Part shown: positions 2 to 57,887 of the stretch, piece by piece | Numbering within the stretch: the stretch's first letter is position 1 | Layout of the letters: every line of letters starts with the position of its first letter | Source: Candidatus Manganitrophus morganii | GTDB lineage: Bacteria > Nitrospirota > Nitrospiria > SBBL01 > Manganitrophaceae | Direction: 5' to 3' | DNA length: 64,000 bases | Assembly (NCBI GenBank): GCA_021651055.1 | Contig: JAJHOH010000001.1 | Span: 2,666,001 to 2,730,000, forward strand | Notes under the pieces: model-generated | What the model saw: the letters and a program-made list of their open reading frames with translations, nothing else | Told to the model about the DNA's origin: nothing | Databases searched by the model: none | Made by a program: the position numbers and the translations under genes

Positions 2-307
2 CGAGAGATGACCCGCTGGCGGATCGAGGTGGATGCCCGCAAGAAGGGGCTCCGCGAGATTAACCCCTCGATTATCGATGCAAAATACAGTGAATGGGCG
101 CAGCTTTCCCGGAATGTCGAGCGACATCACGCCTGGGATGCTGATGCGGAGGGCCGAATCGCCCGCATCCCCTCTTTCGTCCGGGGAACGGTGATCAAGG
201 AGATTGAATCGTACGCCAATGAGAAGGGAATCGGCCGGATCACCATCGAGATCCTCGATCAAGTCACCGAGCGGTGGGCGGAAGCGATGCGGTCGCAAGG
301 TTTCTAG
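2..307 (+). CDS. PCP_red-module protein, C-terminal part (5' truncated by window edge)
   Basis: The frame is open to the left window edge, so this is probably the tail of a longer protein; the ATG at 8 may be internal. Residues from about 40 of the ATG-started form match the protochlorophyllide-reductase-like C-terminal module (PCP_red): a Trp, then AEGRIARIPSFVRG, then an amphipathic helix ending in ITIEILDQV. The same pattern recurs at the end of the radical SAM protein downstream and four times in the next gene. PCP_red is best known from the C-terminus of BchB/ChlB; elsewhere it is uncharacterised. The catalytic part of this protein, if any, lies outside the window. A 156-base gap with no clear terminator separates it from the next gene. 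Confidence 0.7.
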   Translation, partial: REMTRWRIEVDARKKGLREINPSIIDAKYSEWAQLSRNVERHHAWDADAEGRIARIPSFVRGTVIKEIESYANEKGIGRITIEILDQVTERWAEAMRSQGF

Positions 308-463
308 TCGCCTGTCCATGAACGGCCACCTGCTACGTTCTCGGTCGCTCGGCAATCCTCATGTACCACACAGTACATTCCGGTTGCCTCGCTCCCTGCG
401 GCCTTGCATCTGGCCATTCCTGAACAGGCTTACTGTTTTGTATTTTCATTAGAGATTCTTTCA

Positions 464-1861
464 ATGGCACATCAAGCGTACTCCGTTTCATGGAACCTCA
501 CCCAGCGCTGCAATCTCTTCTGCACCCACTGCTACATGAGTGCCTTTCCCCACGCCGATATCTCGCACGACTTCACAACCGAAGAGTGCTTCAAGGTCAT
601 CGACGACATGGCGAAGGTCAACCCGAATCTCTTCCTGATCCTGACCGGAGGGGAGCCGCTTGTCCGAAAAGACATCTTCGACATCGCCTCGTATGCTTCC
701 GACAAGGGCTTTACCTGTGTTCTCGGCACCAACGGCGTCTTGCTCGGTGAGCGGGAAGCAAGACGGATGCGCGAGAGCGGCCTGCAAGGGGCCTCGATCA
801 GCCTCGATTCGGTCGATCCGCAACGGCACGACAACTTCCGTCAGCTGGCCGGATCGTGGAAGTCGGCGCTCCGCGGCATTGAGCATCTCAAAGCGGAAGG
901 GCTCGATTTTTCCCTGCACATGAGTGTGATGTCGTGGAACGTCTCCGAAATTCCGCCGATGATCGAGCTCGCGCGCAACATCGGGGCGAAGGTTCTTAAC
1001 TTTTTCTTTCTCGTCCAGACCGGCCGCGGCGAAAACCTGATTGATATCCGTCCCAGCCAGTATCGGGAGATCCTGACCTATCTCGCGCGGGCGCAGGGGG
1101 TCGGTGCCAAGGAAAACAATCCGAGCCTCTTCCAAAATTTTGATGACCCCTGGACCTCCTCCGCCGGGCAGCTGGGCGATCTGATCCTTCGGGCCAAATG
1201 CGCCCCGCATTTCCGCAAGATCATCTATGAGCTCGATCCGAATTCTCCCTTGTTAAAAAATTATGCGCAGGGGAGCTGCCCCGCCGGCAAGCATTATTGC
1301 CGGATCACACCGGAAGGGGACATCACCCCCTGTCCGTACATGCCGGTCTCGGCGGGAAATCTTCGGAGGCAGACCTTTGACGAAATATGGAATACCTCTC
1401 CCATTTTAAATGATCTGCGCGAGCCGCAGCTCGGTGGGCGATGCGGAGAGTGCGAGTTCTCTCAGATTTGCGGCGGCTGCCGCTGCCGTGCGTATGCCGT
1501 GAACGGCAGCTACCTGGCGGAAGATCCCGCCTGCGATTATCAGCCGGGGCAATATGGGGGAAAACGAATCGAGCTTCCGGCGGAGCAGACCTTTGGGTTC
1601 GAGGCGAAGTTTACCTTGAACTGGTCGATCGCGGCAAAAGAGCGTCTCAACAGGCTTCCTTCCTTCGCAAGGGGAATGGTGGCGAGCAGTGTGGAGCGGT
1701 ATGCGACCGAACACCAGATTGATCTGATCACCCCGGAGGTGATGCAGAAGGTCAAGGAGGAGGCCGAAGTCCGTCTCGGGAGGAGCTTCAAATTTTCCGA
1801 ATTCACCCGAACGGTTCCGGAGAAGACATCGGCCATTGGTAAAGATCTCTTCCCCGGTTAA
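464..1861 (+). CDS. Radical SAM/SPASM protein (NirJ/AhbC/AhbD-like) with C-terminal PCP_red module
   Basis: Residues 16-23 give the CxxxCxxC motif (CNLFCTHC) that binds the SAM-cleaving 4Fe-4S cluster, followed by the GGEP motif. The C-terminal SPASM region (about residues 275-375) has CPAG, PCPYMP, GN, IW and CGECEF..CGGCRCRAYA, the layout of tetrapyrrole-modifying radical SAM enzymes (NirJ, AhbC, AhbD). The last 60 or so residues form a PCP_red module (RLNRLPSFARG). I chose the ATG at 464: the upstream in-frame codons to 404 show no family similarity. Seen: all motifs. Inferred: the substrate is a haem or related tetrapyrrole, because both the SPASM type and PCP_red point to tetrapyrrole chemistry. 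A peptide-modifying role cannot be excluded. The next gene starts 23 bases downstream and also carries PCP_red modules, so they are probably co-transcribed. Confidence 0.85.
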   Translation: MAHQAYSVSWNLTQRCNLFCTHCYMSAFPHADISHDFTTEECFKVIDDMAKVNPNLFLILTGGEPLVRKDIFDIASYASDKGFTCVLGTNGVLLGEREARRMRESGLQGASISLDSVDPQRHDNFRQLAGSWKSALRGIEHLKAEGLDFSLHMSVMSWNVSEIPPMIELARNIGAKVLNFFFLVQTGRGENLIDIRPSQYREILTYLARAQGVGAKENNPSLFQNFDDPWTSSAGQLGDLILRAKCAPHFRKIIYELDPNSPLLKNYAQGSCPAGKHYCRITPEGDITPCPYMPVSAGNLRRQTFDEIWNTSPILNDLREPQLGGRCGECEFSQICGGCRCRAYAVNGSYLAEDPACDYQPGQYGGKRIELPAEQTFGFEAKFTLNWSIAAKERLNRLPSFARGMVASSVERYATEHQIDLITPEVMQKVKEEAEVRLGRSFKFSEFTRTVPEKTSAIGKDLFPG

Positions 1862-1884
1862 TTTTAAGAATTTGAGGTCATGAT

Positions 1885-2871
1885 ATGGGAAATGCAAATG
1901 AAAACGAAATCACCTGGACGCCGGACGCGGAAGATCGCCTGAAAAAAGCGCCTTTCTTTCTACGGGGGATGGTCCGCAAGCTCTCCGAGAAAAAAGCGCG
2001 GGAGCTCGGAATCACCACCATCACCGAAGAGGTCCTCGCCGGATTTAAAGATAAGATGATGAACCCGATGGCCGGCGCCGGGACCGGCGCGGCGCACAAG
2101 GCGGCGGGGGTCGAGACGAAGCCATTGGCCTGGACGCGCGAAGCGCAGGAGCGCCTTGAGACAGTTCCGGAGTTCATGCGGGCGATGATCAAGCAGATCG
2201 CGGAGGAGGTTGCTCTGGAGCGGGGGCATCTCGAAGTCGACCTGGCCCTTTTGGAAAAAGCGGAGGCGTTGGGAGATGAACCTCAGGAAGAAGCGCATCC
2301 GGAGCTTCCTTGGACCGATGCGGCGAAGGTCCGCCTTGATCAGAAGATCGCCGAATCTCCCGAGATGGCCCGGGATTTCGTCCGGACGATGTTGAAGAAT
2401 GACGCGGAGGATCTGGCGCGGGAGTTGGGGATCGCGCGGATCGACATGGCGGCGCTGACCCAGATTTGGGACGCGCCGCGCGCCGACGTGACCTGGACTG
2501 AAGAAGCCCACAAGCGGTTGATGACCTCGCCCGATTTTGTCCGAAGCGGAATCAAGAAAGCGGCCGAGCGCCGCGCCCGCAAGATGGGGGTCACCACCGT
2601 GACTTCAGAGCTGTTGACCAAGTTCCGCAATGAAGCGATGATGAAAGCGATGAAGCGGCTTCGCGCCTTCGGATACGATGAAATGACCTTCGACGCCTTC
2701 GAAGATGCGAAAGAGAAGATCCGCCGTCTCAAAGACAACACCGAAGCGTCGAAGCGATTGGATGATATAAAAGATTATATGGGAAAACGGGGGAAGGTCG
2801 GTCTCATCGATGAAGAGATGCTTCAGAAGATGAAGGACTACCTCAAAGACCCGACAAAAAAGGAGATGTAA
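1885..2871 (+). CDS. Tandem PCP_red repeat protein (four modules)
   Basis: A 328-residue, charged, predicted soluble protein made almost wholly of four PCP_red-like modules starting near residues 6, 75, 135 and 205. Each begins with W-T-x-x-A and continues R-L, then F/M-x-R-x-x-(I/V), a Lys/Glu-rich helix and a T-E-x-L or equivalent segment (WTPDAEDRLKKAPFFLRG, WTREAQERLETVPEFMRA, WTDAAKVRLDQ, WTEEAHKRLMTSPDFVRS). The third is more divergent. The C-terminal 90 residues are helical and Lys-rich. No enzymatic domain, signal peptide or membrane segment is visible. It lies directly behind the radical SAM gene, which carries one copy of the same module, so a scaffold or tetrapyrrole-carrier role for that enzyme is plausible but unproven. 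Confidence 0.75.
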   Translation: MGNANENEITWTPDAEDRLKKAPFFLRGMVRKLSEKKARELGITTITEEVLAGFKDKMMNPMAGAGTGAAHKAAGVETKPLAWTREAQERLETVPEFMRAMIKQIAEEVALERGHLEVDLALLEKAEALGDEPQEEAHPELPWTDAAKVRLDQKIAESPEMARDFVRTMLKNDAEDLARELGIARIDMAALTQIWDAPRADVTWTEEAHKRLMTSPDFVRSGIKKAAERRARKMGVTTVTSELLTKFRNEAMMKAMKRLRAFGYDEMTFDAFEDAKEKIRRLKDNTEASKRLDDIKDYMGKRGKVGLIDEEMLQKMKDYLKDPTKKEM

Positions 2872-2925: not shown

Positions 2926-3390
2926 ATGAATTTCTTCGCTGTCCTCAATCACTGGCTTCATCTGATCTCCGTCGTCATCTGGGTGGGGGGAGCGGCTTTT
3001 CTGGTTTTTGTCGCCGCGCCCCTGCTCAAAACGGGAGACCCCTCTTACGATTTCCTGAAAGGGGTCAACCATCGATTCCGTCGCATCGTTGGTCCGCTTC
3101 TCTTCATCTTGGTTGTCACCGGCGGGATCAATTTCGGGGTCCGGACCAAAGGATATGAATTCGTCCCTCCCGGTTATATCTCTGCGCTGGGGGTGAAGGT
3201 CTTTCTGTTCGCCGCGATTGCCTCGATTTATTTCTTCAGTATTCTTCGTTCTCGTTATAAAGATGAGCAGGATGAGAGACCGAGAGAGAATCAACCGGCC
3301 CTTCCCGAATTTGTAAACACCCGATTGACGCTGATTATCGGACTCATTATCATCTTCCTCGCCTCGATGTTAAGGCAGTGGAAGTTTTAG
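2926..3390 (+). CDS. CopD-family-like integral membrane protein
   Basis: A 154-residue protein with four predicted transmembrane helices (about 6-27, 45-63, 77-99, 131-149). The first helix has NHWLHLISVVIWVGG, with the His and the W-x-G-G typical of CopD/DUF2269-like membrane proteins; helix 2 is preceded by RFRRIVGP and followed by TGGIN. These families include copper-resistance CopD and HemJ-like haem-binding proteins, so metal or haem binding through the conserved His is possible. No cytoplasmic enzymatic domain is seen. It follows the PCP_red genes by 54 bases in the same direction and may belong to the same transcription unit. The ribosome-binding site is weak, so the start is moderately sure. 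Confidence 0.65.
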   Translation: MNFFAVLNHWLHLISVVIWVGGAAFLVFVAAPLLKTGDPSYDFLKGVNHRFRRIVGPLLFILVVTGGINFGVRTKGYEFVPPGYISALGVKVFLFAAIASIYFFSILRSRYKDEQDERPRENQPALPEFVNTRLTLIIGLIIIFLASMLRQWKF

Positions 3391-3476
3391 AGTGTGGCGT
3401 CGCGCCGATTCCGTCGCTCTCTCCCACCCGTCGGGTTTTCCGAGCGCTTTTTCTCTCTTTTATATAAAAGGTGTTT

Positions 3477-4088
3477 ATGGTTGACCGGTTTCGGGTGAAT
3501 CGGGGAGGCTTCAAACCGCTCTGGAGGGGAGCCTTCTGTGCGGGAATGCTGCTTTTGATGCTCCGTCCGCCTGATCTGCATGCGATTCATTTTGTCATCA
3601 ACAGCAATGAGCGTATTCAACGAGAACATGGCCCGCTGAAATTGGGGATGGCCCTTCCCGATTTTCTTCAAGCGGTCAAAAGCAAGGAGGCAGCGTTAGA
3701 AATTGGACAGTTTGAGGAAGAAAAACGCTTCCATGCCGATCCCGCTCTTTTTGCGCCGGCCGCTTCCGGTGTTCTTGCCGATTTTTTTAAGGGGCAGCTT
3801 TTTCGAATTGAGATCAACTATCGCCCTGTCGATAAGGAATCGAGCGCCGTAGAAGAGCTGAAAGCGCAGATCACCGCGCGTTATGGACCTCCCCGGATCA
3901 ATTCCCTTCCCGGAACCGATTTATTCTTCTGGGATGACGGAAAGACCCGCCTGATTTTGGAGAGAGATGAATTGGAGGAAGGGATCGGTTATTCGACCAC
4001 CTACCTCGATGATGATCTTTTTCATCAGGCAAGTCACGATCGGGTAAAGAAAGAGACCGATGGAAAATCATCCTATGGACGCAAATGA
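3477..4088 (+). CDS. Hypothetical exported protein
   Basis: I recognise no family. The start is ATG 3477, behind AAAAGGTG; a GTG at 3471 in the same frame overlaps that site and is less likely. The N-terminus has a basic stretch and then a hydrophobic segment (about residues 18-35, ending near LHA), which reads as a signal peptide. The mature part of about 165 residues is mixed alpha/beta, with EELKAQITARYGPP followed by a W-D-D-G-K-T-R strand, reminiscent of small periplasmic proteins that compare substrate-length segments; no Cys or clear catalytic motif is visible. It is separated by 86 bases from the CopD-like gene. An AT-rich gap follows. Confidence 0.6.
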   Translation: MVDRFRVNRGGFKPLWRGAFCAGMLLLMLRPPDLHAIHFVINSNERIQREHGPLKLGMALPDFLQAVKSKEAALEIGQFEEEKRFHADPALFAPAASGVLADFFKGQLFRIEINYRPVDKESSAVEELKAQITARYGPPRINSLPGTDLFFWDDGKTRLILERDELEEGIGYSTTYLDDDLFHQASHDRVKKETDGKSSYGRK

Positions 4089-5389: not shown

Positions 5390-6922
5390 ATGCTCTCAAA
5401 GATCTTCAGTGCCGTCCTGTATGGAATCGAGGCCCAGCCGATCGACGTGGAGGTCGATCTATCTCAGGGCCTTCCGCTGCTGAATATCGTCGGCCTTCCC
5501 GACCTTGCGGTCAAAGAGAGCAAAGACCGCGTCCGCTCCGCCATCAAGAACACCGGCTTCCACTTTCCCATCAAGAAAATCACGATCAACTTGGCCCCGG
5601 CCGATCTTAAGAAAGAAGGCGCCGCCTTCGATCTGCCGATGGCGCTCGGCATTCTCGCCGCCGACGGGGTGCTGAAAGAAGACCGGCTCGGCCATTACCT
5701 GATCGTCGGAGAGTTGTCGCTCGACGGCCGGATCAAGGAGATCAAGGGGACATTGGCGATGGCGATCTTGGCGAAGCGGGCCGGAAAGCGCGGCCTGGTC
5801 GTGCCCGCGAAAAACGGTCCCGAAGCGGCGGTCGTCTCTGGAATCGAAGTCCTCGGGGTCGAGACGCTTCCGCAGGTGGTCGAATTCCTCAACGGCCAGC
5901 TTCCCCTCTCGCCGGTCGAGACCCCCCTCTCCCCCCTCTTTGCCGAGCAGGCGCTTTATGCAGAGGATTTTTCAGAGGTCCGCGGCCAGGCGCACGCGAA
6001 GCGGGCGTTGGAGATCGCGGCCGCCGGCGGCCACAACATTTTGATGGTCGGTCCCCCCGGCTCCGGAAAAACGATGCTCGCGAAGCGTTTCCCGACGATC
6101 CTTCCGAACATGAGCTTCGAGGAGTCGCTGGAGACGACGCTGGTTCACAGCATCTTCGGTCTTCTCACCGAGAAGCCGTTGATCGTCGCCCGCCCCTTCC
6201 GCTCCCCGCACCATACCGTCTCCGACGCCGGCTTGATCGGCGGCGGGCAACTCCCGCGGCCCGGCGAGGTGAGCCTGGCCCACAACGGGGTTCTTTTTTT
6301 GGATGAGCTGCCGGAGTTTAAGCGCAACGTCTTGGAGGTATTACGGCAGCCCTTGGAGGAAGGAAGGGTCACAATCGCGCGCGCGAGCGCATCGTTGACT
6401 TATCCGTCACAGTTCATGTTGGTGGCGGCAATGAATCCCTGCCCCTGCGGTTACCTGACCGATCCCACCCGAAGCTGCTCCTGCACGCCGGTCGCGATCC
6501 AGCGCTACCGCGCCAAGGTCTCCGGCCCCTTGCTCGACCGGATCGACCTGCATATCGAAGTCCCCGCCGTTCCGTTCCGCGATCTGACGACCGAGACCCA
6601 AGATGAAAGCTCCGAGATCATCCGCAAGCGGGTCCTCGCCGCGCGCGAGGTCCAGCGGGCGCGCTATGAGAAGGATGGAATCCGCTGCAATGCGCAGTTG
6701 CGGCCGAGACAGATCAAGAAATACTGTCCGATCGACGAGCCTTCCCGGCGCTTGGTGGAGATGGCGATGGAGCGGCTGGGTCTCTCCGCCCGCGCGTACA
6801 ATCGCATTTTAAAAGTGGCCCGCTCGATCGCCGACCTGGAGCAGCGCGAGCGGATCTCGGCGACCGACATCGCCGAGGCGGTGCAATACCGGAGCTTGGA
6901 TCGGAAGACGTTCGGGGGGTAA
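5390..6922 (+). CDS. comM: YifB/ComM family Mg-chelatase-like AAA+ ATPase
   Basis: 510 residues, the normal length for ComM. The N-terminal third is the Lon-protease-like fold (residues 1-175, with VVGLPDLAVKESKDRVRSA). The AAA+ core has Walker A GPPGSGKT near residue 223, the RSPHHT...GGG signature of the family, Walker B LFLDELPEF, and a zinc-binding-like CPCGY...CSC insert. The C-terminal lid has ARAYNRILKVARSIADL. ComM proteins are hexameric branch-migration helicases that extend incorporation of DNA during natural transformation. No other competence gene is in the window, though pilT at 55799 may serve DNA uptake as well as motility. Confidence 0.93.
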   Translation: MLSKIFSAVLYGIEAQPIDVEVDLSQGLPLLNIVGLPDLAVKESKDRVRSAIKNTGFHFPIKKITINLAPADLKKEGAAFDLPMALGILAADGVLKEDRLGHYLIVGELSLDGRIKEIKGTLAMAILAKRAGKRGLVVPAKNGPEAAVVSGIEVLGVETLPQVVEFLNGQLPLSPVETPLSPLFAEQALYAEDFSEVRGQAHAKRALEIAAAGGHNILMVGPPGSGKTMLAKRFPTILPNMSFEESLETTLVHSIFGLLTEKPLIVARPFRSPHHTVSDAGLIGGGQLPRPGEVSLAHNGVLFLDELPEFKRNVLEVLRQPLEEGRVTIARASASLTYPSQFMLVAAMNPCPCGYLTDPTRSCSCTPVAIQRYRAKVSGPLLDRIDLHIEVPAVPFRDLTTETQDESSEIIRKRVLAAREVQRARYEKDGIRCNAQLRPRQIKKYCPIDEPSRRLVEMAMERLGLSARAYNRILKVARSIADLEQRERISATDIAEAVQYRSLDRKTFGG

Positions 6923-6958: not shown

Positions 6959-8203
6959 TTACCCTTCGTCGAACATCAAACCCTTTACCGGATTGTCGAT
7001 CTGATAGAGGTAACGCCGCGTTTGATCTTGGCAAACCGATTTCAGCTCCTCGTCTCTCATCGTTTGGCAGGCGACCTTCAACGCCTCCGCCCGCTCATGG
7101 CCCTTCTTTCGAAGGAAGAGGCCGCTGACGCAAAGTTTTCGATCGGTTGCATTTCCGTACTGACAGGTAAAATTGACCTCTTTGGGATGCGCAGCGATGT
7201 AAGAATGGCCATAGGCGCCCGCCGCGTAAAAGCAACTCAGGCGGGACTTCCCCTTTAATCCGGCGCATTGGAGGGCGACGGCATCGATTTGGCGAAGCGC
7301 GGTCGGGCGTCCCAAAAAGAAATGAAGACAGGAGCTCGGCCACTGCGTGTTATTGAGGCAAAAATCCATCTCCGCTTCCCATTTTTCTCCCGTGGCATTC
7401 TGTGCCAACTTCTTCTGAATCTCCTCGCGCAGTTCCATGAAAAGACCCGACTGGCAATAATACTGCATGGCGGCCTCCTCGAAAAGGGTGCAGTACTCTT
7501 TTGCCGTCGGGACGTTCTGGGCGATGTTGGCGAAGGCATGTCCCACCGCATGGGCGCAATTCCCGCGATAAAAGTCCTCCATGACGGTGGAGTCCTCTTT
7601 ACAGAGCTGGTGGACATCTTGTTTCAGCCGCTCGGTCTCCGGGGTGAGCCCCCCCTCGTTCAGAGAAAAATCGGCCTGCTCGATCTGATAGTCTGAGAAG
7701 TGGGCCTTCAGGACCCCATGAAGACAGGCATAAGTGCAGGCATCCTGACAAAGCTGAAAAGAGGTCTCCAGATTGTTGGTCCGCTCGCGGATAATGCTTC
7801 CGAGGGCGTGGAGCTCGCCATGGCAGAAGGGGTTTTGACCTTGAATGTGCTCCACGATCCTTCTGACGCCGAGATCGTCGATGAACTCCAGATAAATCGA
7901 TCGCTCCGTCCTCGTTTTAATCTGCTCTAACGCGGTGATGAACTCTCTCATCCGAAGGTTTTGTTCCTGCCCCCGAAGTCTTCCCAGCCAGAGAGGATGA
8001 TTCCGAATGGTTTCTTGATCTCCGAATCGGGATGGAGTCATCTCCCCGTCATCGGCCATTCCATGCGTCATTTCATGGGTTACTTCGTGCTCGATCGCAT
8101 CCATCGTCGACTCTTCTGCTGAAATCGAGAGGCTCCAGAATGAAGCCAACCCCAACCCGACCAGAGTCGCCAAAACAGTGAACTTCGAAAGTTTCAAAAG
8201 CAT
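6959..8203 (-). CDS. Secreted Cys/His-rich protein, paralog A
   Basis: 414 residues with a signal peptide (about 1-29, ending near SISA). The mature protein has about 16 Cys, many set in short repeated Cys-His-Gly units: CHGELHALG, CTYACLHGV, NCAHAVGHAF, YYCQSGLF, SCLHFFLG. There is no CxxCH, so it is not a c-type cytochrome. The units are spaced like helical repeats, suggesting a disulfide-stapled or metal-binding alpha-solenoid; similar C-x-H-G/G-H repeats occur in proteins of unknown function elsewhere. The start has AAAGGAT behind it. The next gene upstream is a close paralog in the same direction, with a 219-base gap between them. Residues about 124-253 are encoded by DNA identical to the paralog. 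Function unknown. Confidence 0.8.
   Translation of the reverse strand: MLLKLSKFTVLATLVGLGLASFWSLSISAEESTMDAIEHEVTHEMTHGMADDGEMTPSRFGDQETIRNHPLWLGRLRGQEQNLRMREFITALEQIKTRTERSIYLEFIDDLGVRRIVEHIQGQNPFCHGELHALGSIIRERTNNLETSFQLCQDACTYACLHGVLKAHFSDYQIEQADFSLNEGGLTPETERLKQDVHQLCKEDSTVMEDFYRGNCAHAVGHAFANIAQNVPTAKEYCTLFEEAAMQYYCQSGLFMELREEIQKKLAQNATGEKWEAEMDFCLNNTQWPSSCLHFFLGRPTALRQIDAVALQCAGLKGKSRLSCFYAAGAYGHSYIAAHPKEVNFTCQYGNATDRKLCVSGLFLRKKGHERAEALKVACQTMRDEELKSVCQDQTRRYLYQIDNPVKGLMFDEG
7443..7835. repeat. 393-bp direct repeat, copy 1 (inside paralog A)
   Basis: Reading line by line against 8907-9299 (offset 1464) I found no mismatch over 393 bases. The first differences are at 7442/8906 and 7836/9300. 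Outside this block the two genes differ clearly, including at silent positions. Confidence 0.92.
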
Positions 8204-8422: not shown

Positions 8423-9634
8423 TTATCCTTCGTCGAACATCAGACCCATTACCGGATTGTCGATCTGGTAGAGGTAACGCCGCGTTTGATCTTGACAGAC
8501 CGATTTCAGCTCCTCGTCTCTCATCGTTCGGCAGGCGACCTTCAGCGCCGCCGCCCCGCTATGGCCCTTCTTTCGAAGGAAGAGGCCGCTGATGCAGAGT
8601 TTGCGATCGGTTGTGTTTCCATACTGACAAGTATAATTGACCTCCTTGGGGGCTGCGGCAACATAGGCGCTGCTAAAGACGCCTACTCCGAAAAAACAGC
8701 TCAGGCGAGACCTTCCCTTCAATTCTGCGCATTTGAGGGCGACGGCATCGATTTGGCGAAGCGCGGTCGCATGTCCCAGGAAGAAATGAAGGCAGGCGCT
8801 CGGCCACTGGGAGTTGTCAAAGCAAAAAGCCACTGCTGTTTCCCATCTCTCTCCTACGGTATGGGAGGTCAGCTCTTTTCCAATTTCATCTCGCAGGTCC
8901 ATGAAGAGACCCGACTGGCAATAATACTGCATGGCGGCCTCCTCGAAAAGGGTGCAGTACTCTTTTGCCGTCGGGACGTTCTGGGCGATGTTGGCGAAGG
9001 CATGTCCCACCGCATGGGCGCAATTCCCGCGATAAAAGTCCTCCATGACGGTGGAGTCCTCTTTACAGAGCTGGTGGACATCTTGTTTCAGCCGCTCGGT
9101 CTCCGGGGTGAGCCCCCCCTCGTTCAGAGAAAAATCGGCCTGCTCGATCTGATAGTCTGAGAAGTGGGCCTTCAGGACCCCATGAAGACAGGCATAAGTG
9201 CAGGCATCCTGACAAAGCTGAAAAGAGGTCTCCAGATTGTTGGTCCGCTCGCGGATAATGCTTCCGAGGGCGTGGAGCTCGCCATGGCAGAAGGGGTTTA
9301 TCCCTTCAATATATTCGACGATTCTTCTGACGCCGAGATCGTCGATGAATTCCTGAAAAAGAGACCGCTCGGTTCTCATCTGAATCTTTTTCAAGGCGGT
9401 GATGAATTCTCTCATCCGAATACTTTGTTCCTGTCTGCGAAGCTTTCCCCGCCAGAGCGGATGGTTCCGAATGGTCGCTTGATCCTCAAGTTGAGATGAA
9501 GTCGTTTCTTCGTCATCGGCCATTTCCATGATTTTGTCTATCGCCGAATCTTCTGCAGAAACAGAAAGGCCCCAAGGTAAAGTCGACCATAACCCGATCG
9601 GAATGGCCAAAAGGAGGAGTGTCGATCGACGCAT
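8423..9634 (-). CDS. Secreted Cys/His-rich protein, paralog B
   Basis: 403 residues, same architecture as paralog A: signal peptide (about 1-26, ending GLSVSA), acidic spacer, then the Cys-His-Gly unit repeats and the same ending (NPV.GLMFDEG). It is preceded by AAAGGAT. Paralog A has an extra 11 or so residues of His/Met/Glu-rich sequence (HEVTHEMTHGM) after the signal peptide that B lacks; these could be metal ligands in A. The middle third is identical in DNA to A, while both flanks have diverged (for example the unit after the identical block is ELTSHTVGERW in B against KLAQNATGEKW in A). Function unknown; periplasmic or secreted. Confidence 0.8.
   Translation of the reverse strand: MRRSTLLLLAIPIGLWSTLPWGLSVSAEDSAIDKIMEMADDEETTSSQLEDQATIRNHPLWRGKLRRQEQSIRMREFITALKKIQMRTERSLFQEFIDDLGVRRIVEYIEGINPFCHGELHALGSIIRERTNNLETSFQLCQDACTYACLHGVLKAHFSDYQIEQADFSLNEGGLTPETERLKQDVHQLCKEDSTVMEDFYRGNCAHAVGHAFANIAQNVPTAKEYCTLFEEAAMQYYCQSGLFMDLRDEIGKELTSHTVGERWETAVAFCFDNSQWPSACLHFFLGHATALRQIDAVALKCAELKGRSRLSCFFGVGVFSSAYVAAAPKEVNYTCQYGNTTDRKLCISGLFLRKKGHSGAAALKVACRTMRDEELKSVCQDQTRRYLYQIDNPVMGLMFDEG
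8907..9299. repeat. 393-bp direct repeat, copy 2 (inside paralog B)
   Basis: Second copy of the block at 7443-7835, with no mismatch found by eye. It encodes the central Cys-rich units from FCHGELHALG to about SGLFM. Confidence 0.92.
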
Positions 9635-57400: not shown

Positions 57401-57420
57401 TTACCCGTTCGATAAAGAAC

Positions 57421-57598
57421 CCGTTCAGGTGATCCCGACGTCATGTCGGGATTGAAAAGGGAATCCCGTGTAAATCGGGAGCGGACCCGCCGCTGTCATG
57501 GGACGCGAAACCGACCAAACCACTCTCCGTATAAAATGTCCGGGGGGGAAGGGGTCGGGAGTAAGATCGTCCCAGAGCCAGAAGACCTGCCTGAATGG
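57421..57598 (+). ncRNA. Cobalamin riboswitch 1 (transcription-type)
   Basis: P1 is CCGTTCAGG (57421-57429) with CCTGAATGG (57590-57598), one G-U pair. The core has the cobalamin hallmarks in order: GGGAA, GTGTAAAT, GCGGACCCGCCGCTGT, CCACT-like CACT, GGGAAGG and the B12 box AGCCAGAAGACCTGCC. Downstream, GAATGGAAAG (57593-57602) can pair perfectly with CTTTCCATTC (57654-57663), which overlaps the 5' arm of the terminator. Ligand-stabilised P1 uses 57590-57598 and so frees the terminator arm: B12 turns the operon off. Confidence 0.9.
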
Positions 57599-57647
57599 AA
57601 AGCACTGCCTGTCTTCGATGGTCAAGACGGGGGCGGACTCATTCCAT

Positions 57648-57683: not shown

Positions 57684-57705
57684 GGACAGAATTTAAATCA
57701 AATCA

Positions 57706-57856
57706 CCTGAAGGGTTGATCGGGAAAGCGGTGCAAAACCGCTGCTGCCCCGCAACTGTGATGGGAACGAAACCACAACGGCCACTGGAGAATATAAATGT
57801 TCTCCGGGAAGGCGTGGGAGTAGGTTGCCCTCAGCCAGGAGACCGGGCCTTTCAGG
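57706..57856 (+). ncRNA. Cobalamin riboswitch 2
   Basis: P1 is CCTGAAGGG (57706-57714) with CCTTTCAGG (57848-57856), one G-U pair. The core shows GGGAAAGCGGTGCAAA, CCGCTGCTGCCCCGCAACTGT, GCCACT, GGGAAGG and AGCCAGGAGACCGG. A short hairpin (CCTT at 57868-57871 with AAGG at 57875-57878) covers the start of the btuB Shine-Dalgarno AAGGGAGAGG, so this copy probably controls translation. It lies 31 bases before the btuB start and has no terminator. Confidence 0.9.
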
Positions 57857-57887
57857 ATCACATTTCACCTTTCGAAGGGAGAGGAAG

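Follow-up and report, generated by a model that had tools for sequence, protein, structure and literature searches.

The first genes of a 64,000-nucleotide stretch of the Candidatus Manganitrophus morganii genome (Nitrospirota), hereafter the window (G000:C1:2666001-2730000; the 4.29-Mb genome is one contig), belong to a gene set that is widely conserved and undescribed. In it a radical SAM/SPASM enzyme, a distinct variant among the AhbD-type SPASM enzymes, shares the small domain PCP_red with proteins of several other types. We believe, with a probability of roughly 0.4, that these genes are part of a conserved respiratory-chain maturation system that has escaped description. The initial annotation of this DNA, made from its letters alone, knew of no described system with such genes, and we likewise found no account of a PCP_red/radical SAM/Usp gene set in the literature searched, which left most subscription journals outside. 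That annotation gave an incomplete view of the set: neither the universal stress protein (Usp) domains nor the respiratory link had been noticed, nor had the Mrp, CopD/HemJ-like and zinc-ribbon partners.

The identification of the repeated modules as PCP_red (PF08369, Pfam curated cut-off 32.5 bits) stands, with Pfam matches in all three of the adjacent proteins. Six modules in three genes had been annotated; the six complete ones inside the window are real, but the three genes hold ten, because the first of them, ORF1, continues upstream of the window edge. The genome has 12 modules in total, the remaining two in one 238-amino-acid protein ca. 435 kb from the main locus, and 11 of the 12 pass the cut-off. 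Within the window, where all are on the plus strand, five of the six score 47–58 bits (E from 1.5e-11 to 4e-15 in a one-genome search): module 5 of ORF1 (134–262, 54.5 bits), the C-terminal module of the radical SAM enzyme (1622–1756, 47 bits) and modules 1 (1915–2037, 58.3 bits), 2 (2131–2262, 51.3 bits) and 4 (2494–2622, 51.1 bits, the best conserved of the four) of the tandem protein. Module 3 of the latter (2311–2463), in which the alignment places an eight-residue insertion in helix 1, is under the cut-off at 29.0 bits, yet it is in the tandem register. The window edge cuts through module 4 of ORF1 (about -49 to 82, 34.2 bits). When modelled, the tandem protein superimposes on 2KRU, the nuclear magnetic resonance structure of the PCP_red domain of BchB, with a root-mean-square deviation (rmsd) of 1.4 Å and 40% identity over 52 columns (Foldseek target TM 0.76, probability 1.00; the small size of the domain limits the E value to 0.019), and it also matches 2L09 (Nostoc Asr4154) and 2YNM_D. 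At the level of the model, the PCP_red fold of the modules is thus confirmed. A histone-like fold was discarded, since no Foldseek match to a histone has an E value better than 0.46 and the rmsd of these matches exceeds 20 Å.

Only the C-terminal 101 amino acids of ORF1 are in the window (2–307, plus strand), most of the gene lying upstream; the full gene (L009:8629-11307) encodes 892 amino acids from the chosen start, in which Pfam detects two Usp domains (E=4e-34), five PCP_red stretches (E=4e-53) and RUBY_RBDX (E=2e-12). There are three CX2C...CX2C knuckles, Pfam seeing two rubredoxin-like stretches, and two GX2GX9GS ATP motifs. The motif GX2GX9G[ST], the mark of ATP-binding-type Usp, occurs at least once in all 45 Usp homologues. 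The tandem-Usp proteins that recur beside the radical SAM gene in most cases bear PCP_red and rubredoxin knuckles as well. The tandem protein (1885–2871, plus strand, 328 amino acids) has four PCP_red stretches (E=1e-48) followed by a helical C-terminal extension, predicted by the model and conserved in the alignment; among the loci compared it was seen in Nitrospirota only, whereas the radical SAM, Usp and Mrp parts cross phyla. In all, PCP_red is borne by four protein types (radical SAM, Usp, zinc-ribbon and tandem proteins) with one to five modules each, and across 379 aligned modules there is no conserved His or Cys, for which reason PCP_red was discarded as a metal or haem ligand. Because it is found on so many protein types and has no conserved metal ligand, we infer that PCP_red would be a docking module. 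A single module is also present in proteins of ca. 340–380 amino acids in another family of the phylum (f15, loci L083 and L084), with the rest of the system absent nearby.

The alternative put forward by the initial annotation was that PCP_red binds a tetrapyrrole and that the tandem protein carries this substrate, in a chlorophyll-like or haem d1-like pathway. We find this rather improbable. It has in its favour that BchB, which belongs to a protochlorophyllide-binding enzyme, ends in a PCP_red domain, and that the radical SAM enzyme comes from a lineage acting on tetrapyrroles; however, substrate carriage is unsupported, as no His or Cys of the module is conserved, and the tandem protein was not seen beyond Nitrospirota. 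The domain here is the same as in BchB/ChlB, but the nitrogenase-like body is absent and the modules are on other protein types, in hosts without the light-independent protochlorophyllide reductase (DPOR). The host was rightly taken as non-photosynthetic in that it lacks DPOR: the BchB model TIGR01278 is matched in M. morganii only at ca. 444–511, its PCP_red end, and not over the catalytic body (ca. 1–420), while 17 genomes gave no match above its cut-off (G119 and G164 have weak nitrogenase-like matches elsewhere). The suggested check for a link to haem d1 turned out negative, as cytochrome cd1 has only a weak 35-bit match in M. morganii and a strong one only in a Scalindua genome (G162). 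Without a DPOR body and cd1 in this genome, both a chlorophyll and a haem d1 pathway were rejected. An open reading frame elsewhere in the window (5390–6922) resembles a YifB/ComM-type protein (Mg-chelatase-like AAA) and, judging from its appearance, does not count as evidence of chlorophyll synthesis.

The enzyme itself (464–1861, plus strand, 465 amino acids) is 99% identical to its counterpart in Candidatus Manganitrophus sp. GAC4. The radical SAM motif CX3CX2C is present and invariant (C16/C20/C23), and the cysteines C246-X25-C272-X17-C290-X36-C327-X2-C330-X5-C336-X2-C339-X17-C357 make up the full AhbD SPASM motif, CX20-33CX17CX36-37CX2CX5CX2CX17-35C (Fix et al., PMC10452713). The complete eight-cysteine pattern, with its gaps slightly widened, fits 88 of 91 relatives. 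The highest scoring NCBIfam models are AhbD (TIGR04545, 306.5 bits) and NirJ2 (TIGR04055, 301 bits), both with cut-offs of 500 that are not reached; NirJ (TIGR04051) gives 197 bits (cut-off 515), PqqE (TIGR02109) 119 (cut-off 381) and mycofactocin 150. Five further family members rank the models alike, so that all those tested have ca. 290–350 bits for AhbD and NirJ2 and 115–142 for PqqE. The initial assignment to the NirJ/AhbC/AhbD type of SPASM protein is borne out by these scores and by the cysteines. The resemblance to AhbD and NirJ2 has clear limits, though. On TIGR04545, the unambiguous AhbD-like proteins of the phylum reach 427–489 bits and, while the SPASM cysteines are common to both, they have E, R and A where the enzyme has N11, Y24 and G88; they also differ in the C-terminal PCP_red and in the Usp/Mrp/CopD/respiratory context. 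In a quick maximum-likelihood tree, 90 PCP_red-bearing enzymes from several phyla fall on one side of a branch with a support of 71, apart from the AhbD-like proteins, which is consistent with, although not strong evidence for, a single origin. In the same tree the Manganitrophus-type enzyme clusters with those of Rokubacteria and Entotheonella rather than with other Nitrospiria, a placement that suggests horizontal transfer.

One possibility would be that the enzyme is simply AhbD, a haem b synthase decarboxylating coproheme, perhaps as an anaerobic backup of ChdC. M. morganii appears to make haem b by a complete coproporphyrin route, as predicted from its genes: ferrochelatase was found by profile, a ChdC-family protein is encoded, and what we take, from reading the sequences, to be UroD and HemY/CgoX-type oxidase genes form one cluster with ferrochelatase just beyond the window. 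HemF is absent from this genome, and the sole match to the HemN model is far under the cut-off, as expected for HemW. Because the coproporphyrin route is apparently complete, the enzyme is probably not the haem b synthase of M. morganii. Relatives use either route. HemF is present in G119, G131 and G152, two of which have HemN as well; these enzymes belong to the protoporphyrin route, where coproheme does not occur as an intermediate. As hosts use either route, haem b synthesis appears to be independent of the system, and a haem b synthase filling a pathway gap was discarded as a candidate. Besides, a separate AhbD-like protein coexists with the PCP_red enzyme in at least six genomes (G006, G062, G083, G111, G127 and G143). 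Set against all this, and against a score of 306 bits where 500 are required, the top NCBIfam rank, the complete AhbD SPASM cysteines and the fact that AhbD stands in for ChdC in some organisms with the coproporphyrin route (PMC7242693) leave a role as haem b synthase quite improbable.

The radical SAM protein was matched in 39 of 40 sampled Nitrospiria, and all 40 have 9–12 PCP_red modules. Relatives among the best 80 matches come from Rokubacteria, Methylomirabilota, Entotheonella, Poribacteria, anammox Planctomycetes and Nitrospinaceae; the system reaches manganese oxidisers, nitrite oxidisers and anammox bacteria, all of them non-photosynthetic. Linkage was counted by profiles on stop-to-stop frames of the fetched loci, because gene calls are rough in the GC-rich Rokubacteria loci. 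The association of modules with the radical SAM gene, noticed in the initial annotation, is conserved in relatives. Usp is linked in 10 of 11 Manganitrophus-type loci, in all of those from other Nitrospiria (11/11) and other Nitrospirota (9/9), in 24 of 27 Rokubacteria-type loci, in 6 of 26 from Poribacteria and in none of the 15 anammox loci, where the enzyme itself bears two or three PCP_red modules. Downstream of the tandem gene is a CopD/HemJ(UPF0093)-like membrane protein (2926–3390, plus strand, 154 amino acids), small like those families and weakly similar to them (CopD E=8e-7, UPF0093 E=1e-3, both below cut-off). A homologue is found at every radical SAM locus of the Manganitrophus type (11), of other Nitrospiria (11) and of Poribacteria (26), that is, at 48 of 48. 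After it comes a conserved 205-amino-acid neighbour without Pfam match (3471–4088, plus strand), a putative member that is likewise adjacent in L050, L090–L095, L111, L115 and L123. Mrp is linked in 20 of 27 Rokubacteria-type loci, a zinc-ribbon-PCP_red protein is a further recurring neighbour, and in L133 and L151 the Usp-PCP, Mrp, zinc-ribbon-PCP, CopD-like and radical SAM genes are all clustered. In five Nitrospiria loci (L053, L054, L056, L057 and L060) the Usp-PCP_red gene is preceded by genes for a B12-binding radical SAM protein and a methyltransferase of the UbiE type. B12-radical SAM neighbours were rejected as members, since they are not conserved; the one in Nitrospira is nearest to the slr0320 type (444 bits, below cut-off) and that in family f22 to lipid/hopanoid types, also below cut-off.

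In M. morganii the Mrp gene is found at the second locus, adjoining that of the 238-amino-acid protein with two PCP_red modules. Its product (E=3e-74) has the same P-loop NUBPL-type iron-transfer ATPase domain as the Mrp/NUBPL iron-sulphur carrier ATPases (NF041136, NF008669), but it stands beside PCP_red genes and is below the curated cut-offs for MrpORP and ApbC. Also at this locus is a TenA/haem-oxygenase-2/CADD-like protein (L010:5300-5998, minus strand), whose gene adjoins PCP_red and Mrp genes in L058, L070 and L071 as well; further along there are what presumably are ATP sulfurylase- and AprAB-like genes, named by reading the sequences. In L058, from another member of the Nitrospiria, the whole set is contained within 9 kb, uniting the two loci that are separate in Manganitrophus. 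A TenA/PqqC-like protein together with a SPASM enzyme might bring to mind a peptide or protein maturase such as PqqE or MftC, in which the two make a cofactor from a peptide and PCP_red substitutes for the peptide-recognition domain. PqqE, SkfB and SuiB are indeed the nearest structures (in a comparison list holding no AhbD structure), and the TenA-like gene recurs beside PCP_red or Mrp genes. However, the PqqE and mycofactocin scores are far below those of AhbD and NirJ2, and outside Nitrospiria the TenA-like gene is unlinked in the loci seen, so we regard a peptide maturase as very improbable.

Neighbours that point to respiration are found in several phyla. The order in Rokubacteria is COX2-COX1-CtaA-CtaB-COX3-COX4-DUF983-Usp-radical SAM-Mrp, with CtaB and COX3 at 22 of 27 Rokubacteria-type loci, and in some Poribacteria loci COX3 and Sco precede the Usp gene (CtaB in one). 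In Scalindua and in three Nitrospirota loci (L067, L086 and L088) a bd-like oxidase and EB_dh-domain cytochromes c adjoin the system, and in L151 the adjacent cluster is one of cytochrome b, with what we take to be a Rieske gene. Among Nitrospirota outside Nitrospiria, EB_dh was found in 13 of the 16 genomes that encode the enzyme and in 11 of the 92 that do not (Fisher p=5e-8, uncorrected for phylogeny). The genes of the system are thus in or beside operons for cytochrome c oxidase assembly (CtaA, CtaB, Sco1) in Rokubacteria and some Poribacteria, but they correspond to no known assembly factor and the operons retain their own CtaA and CtaB. A substitute for haem A synthase, considered on account of the CtaB linkage, was rejected as a general role, because the genomes that contain those oxidase operons also encode CtaA, which in G156 is part of the operon itself. 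There is no CtaA in M. morganii, and COX1 does not track the system, being widespread in the phylum and unmatched in many Nitrospiria that bear it.

Several observations weigh against a role in respiratory-chain maturation. The Manganitrophus locus itself has no adjacent cytochrome genes, the respiratory complex that is linked varies by lineage, and, Scalindua apart, most anammox loci lack both Usp and respiratory neighbours over a distance of 10 kb. Counts from the Rokubacteria and Poribacteria loci are not independent, because these sets come from related genomes, and the control consisted of seven haem loci only. Moreover, AhbD chemistry need not carry over to the enzyme, since it has N11, Y24 and G88 at positions where the AhbD-like proteins compared show no variation and have other residues. 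Another explanation for the same neighbours would be a stress- or redox-response module, one that monitors ATP or redox state through its Usp and rubredoxin parts and uses the radical SAM enzyme to mend haem or protein damaged during respiratory growth. The ATP motifs of Usp, the rubredoxin and zinc-ribbon parts and the respiratory linkage would all fit, but the presence in 39 of 40 sampled Nitrospiria and the location inside oxidase operons suggest a constitutive role in biogenesis, and we strongly doubt a stress function.

If the genes do act in respiratory-chain maturation, the enzyme of AhbD lineage, with ligands for three iron-sulphur clusters, would perform a radical modification. Its substrate would most likely be a porphyrin or haem side chain, judging from AhbD chemistry, the lineage and the neighbours, and the product would serve a respiratory complex and not bulk haem b. 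PCP_red would bring the partners together. From what is known of their families, the rubredoxin knuckles could supply electrons, the Usp domains could sense or use ATP, Mrp could load iron-sulphur clusters and the CopD/HemJ-like membrane protein could hand on the product, the tandem protein being perhaps an additional scaffold in Nitrospirota. A more specific proposal, possible but on balance unlikely, is a new pathway common to manganese-oxidising, nitrite-oxidising and anammox bacteria and to several other phyla. In it the AhbD-derived enzyme, docked via PCP_red to its partners (Usp, rubredoxin and Mrp), would produce a modified, perhaps high-potential, haem for respiratory complexes, the BchB tail being one use of a general docking module.

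Some further features of the window were noted. Between ORF1 and the radical SAM gene there is a 129-bp palindromic element predicted to form a hairpin (308–436, no strand assigned; fold z=-3.2 against shuffles). Diverged copies are present in other loci (two in L071 and one in L174, from another Nitrospiria family). Because the element was not found in the close relative L090, where the gap has a different sequence, it is probably a mobile intergenic repeat outside the system. Two adjacent genes on the minus strand (6959–8203 and 8423–9634) are paralogues with 87% identity over 1.1 kb, the outcome of a recent tandem duplication; the uncharacterised protein that they encode is probably secreted. 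Two cobalamin riboswitches (Rfam RF00174, 109 and 100 bits) are found in tandem at 57410–57608 and 57695–57866, 86 bp apart.

The set is near-universal in the sampled Nitrospiria and present in anammox bacteria, which are central to the nitrogen cycle, and yet we found no description of it. If a respiratory haem is indeed modified, this would add a step to haem biochemistry and give a function to PCP_red, a domain familiar chiefly as an appendage of a chlorophyll enzyme. It would also provide a way into how such bacteria build the chains required for high-potential electron donors. The set moreover offers a defined operon that is open to experiment.

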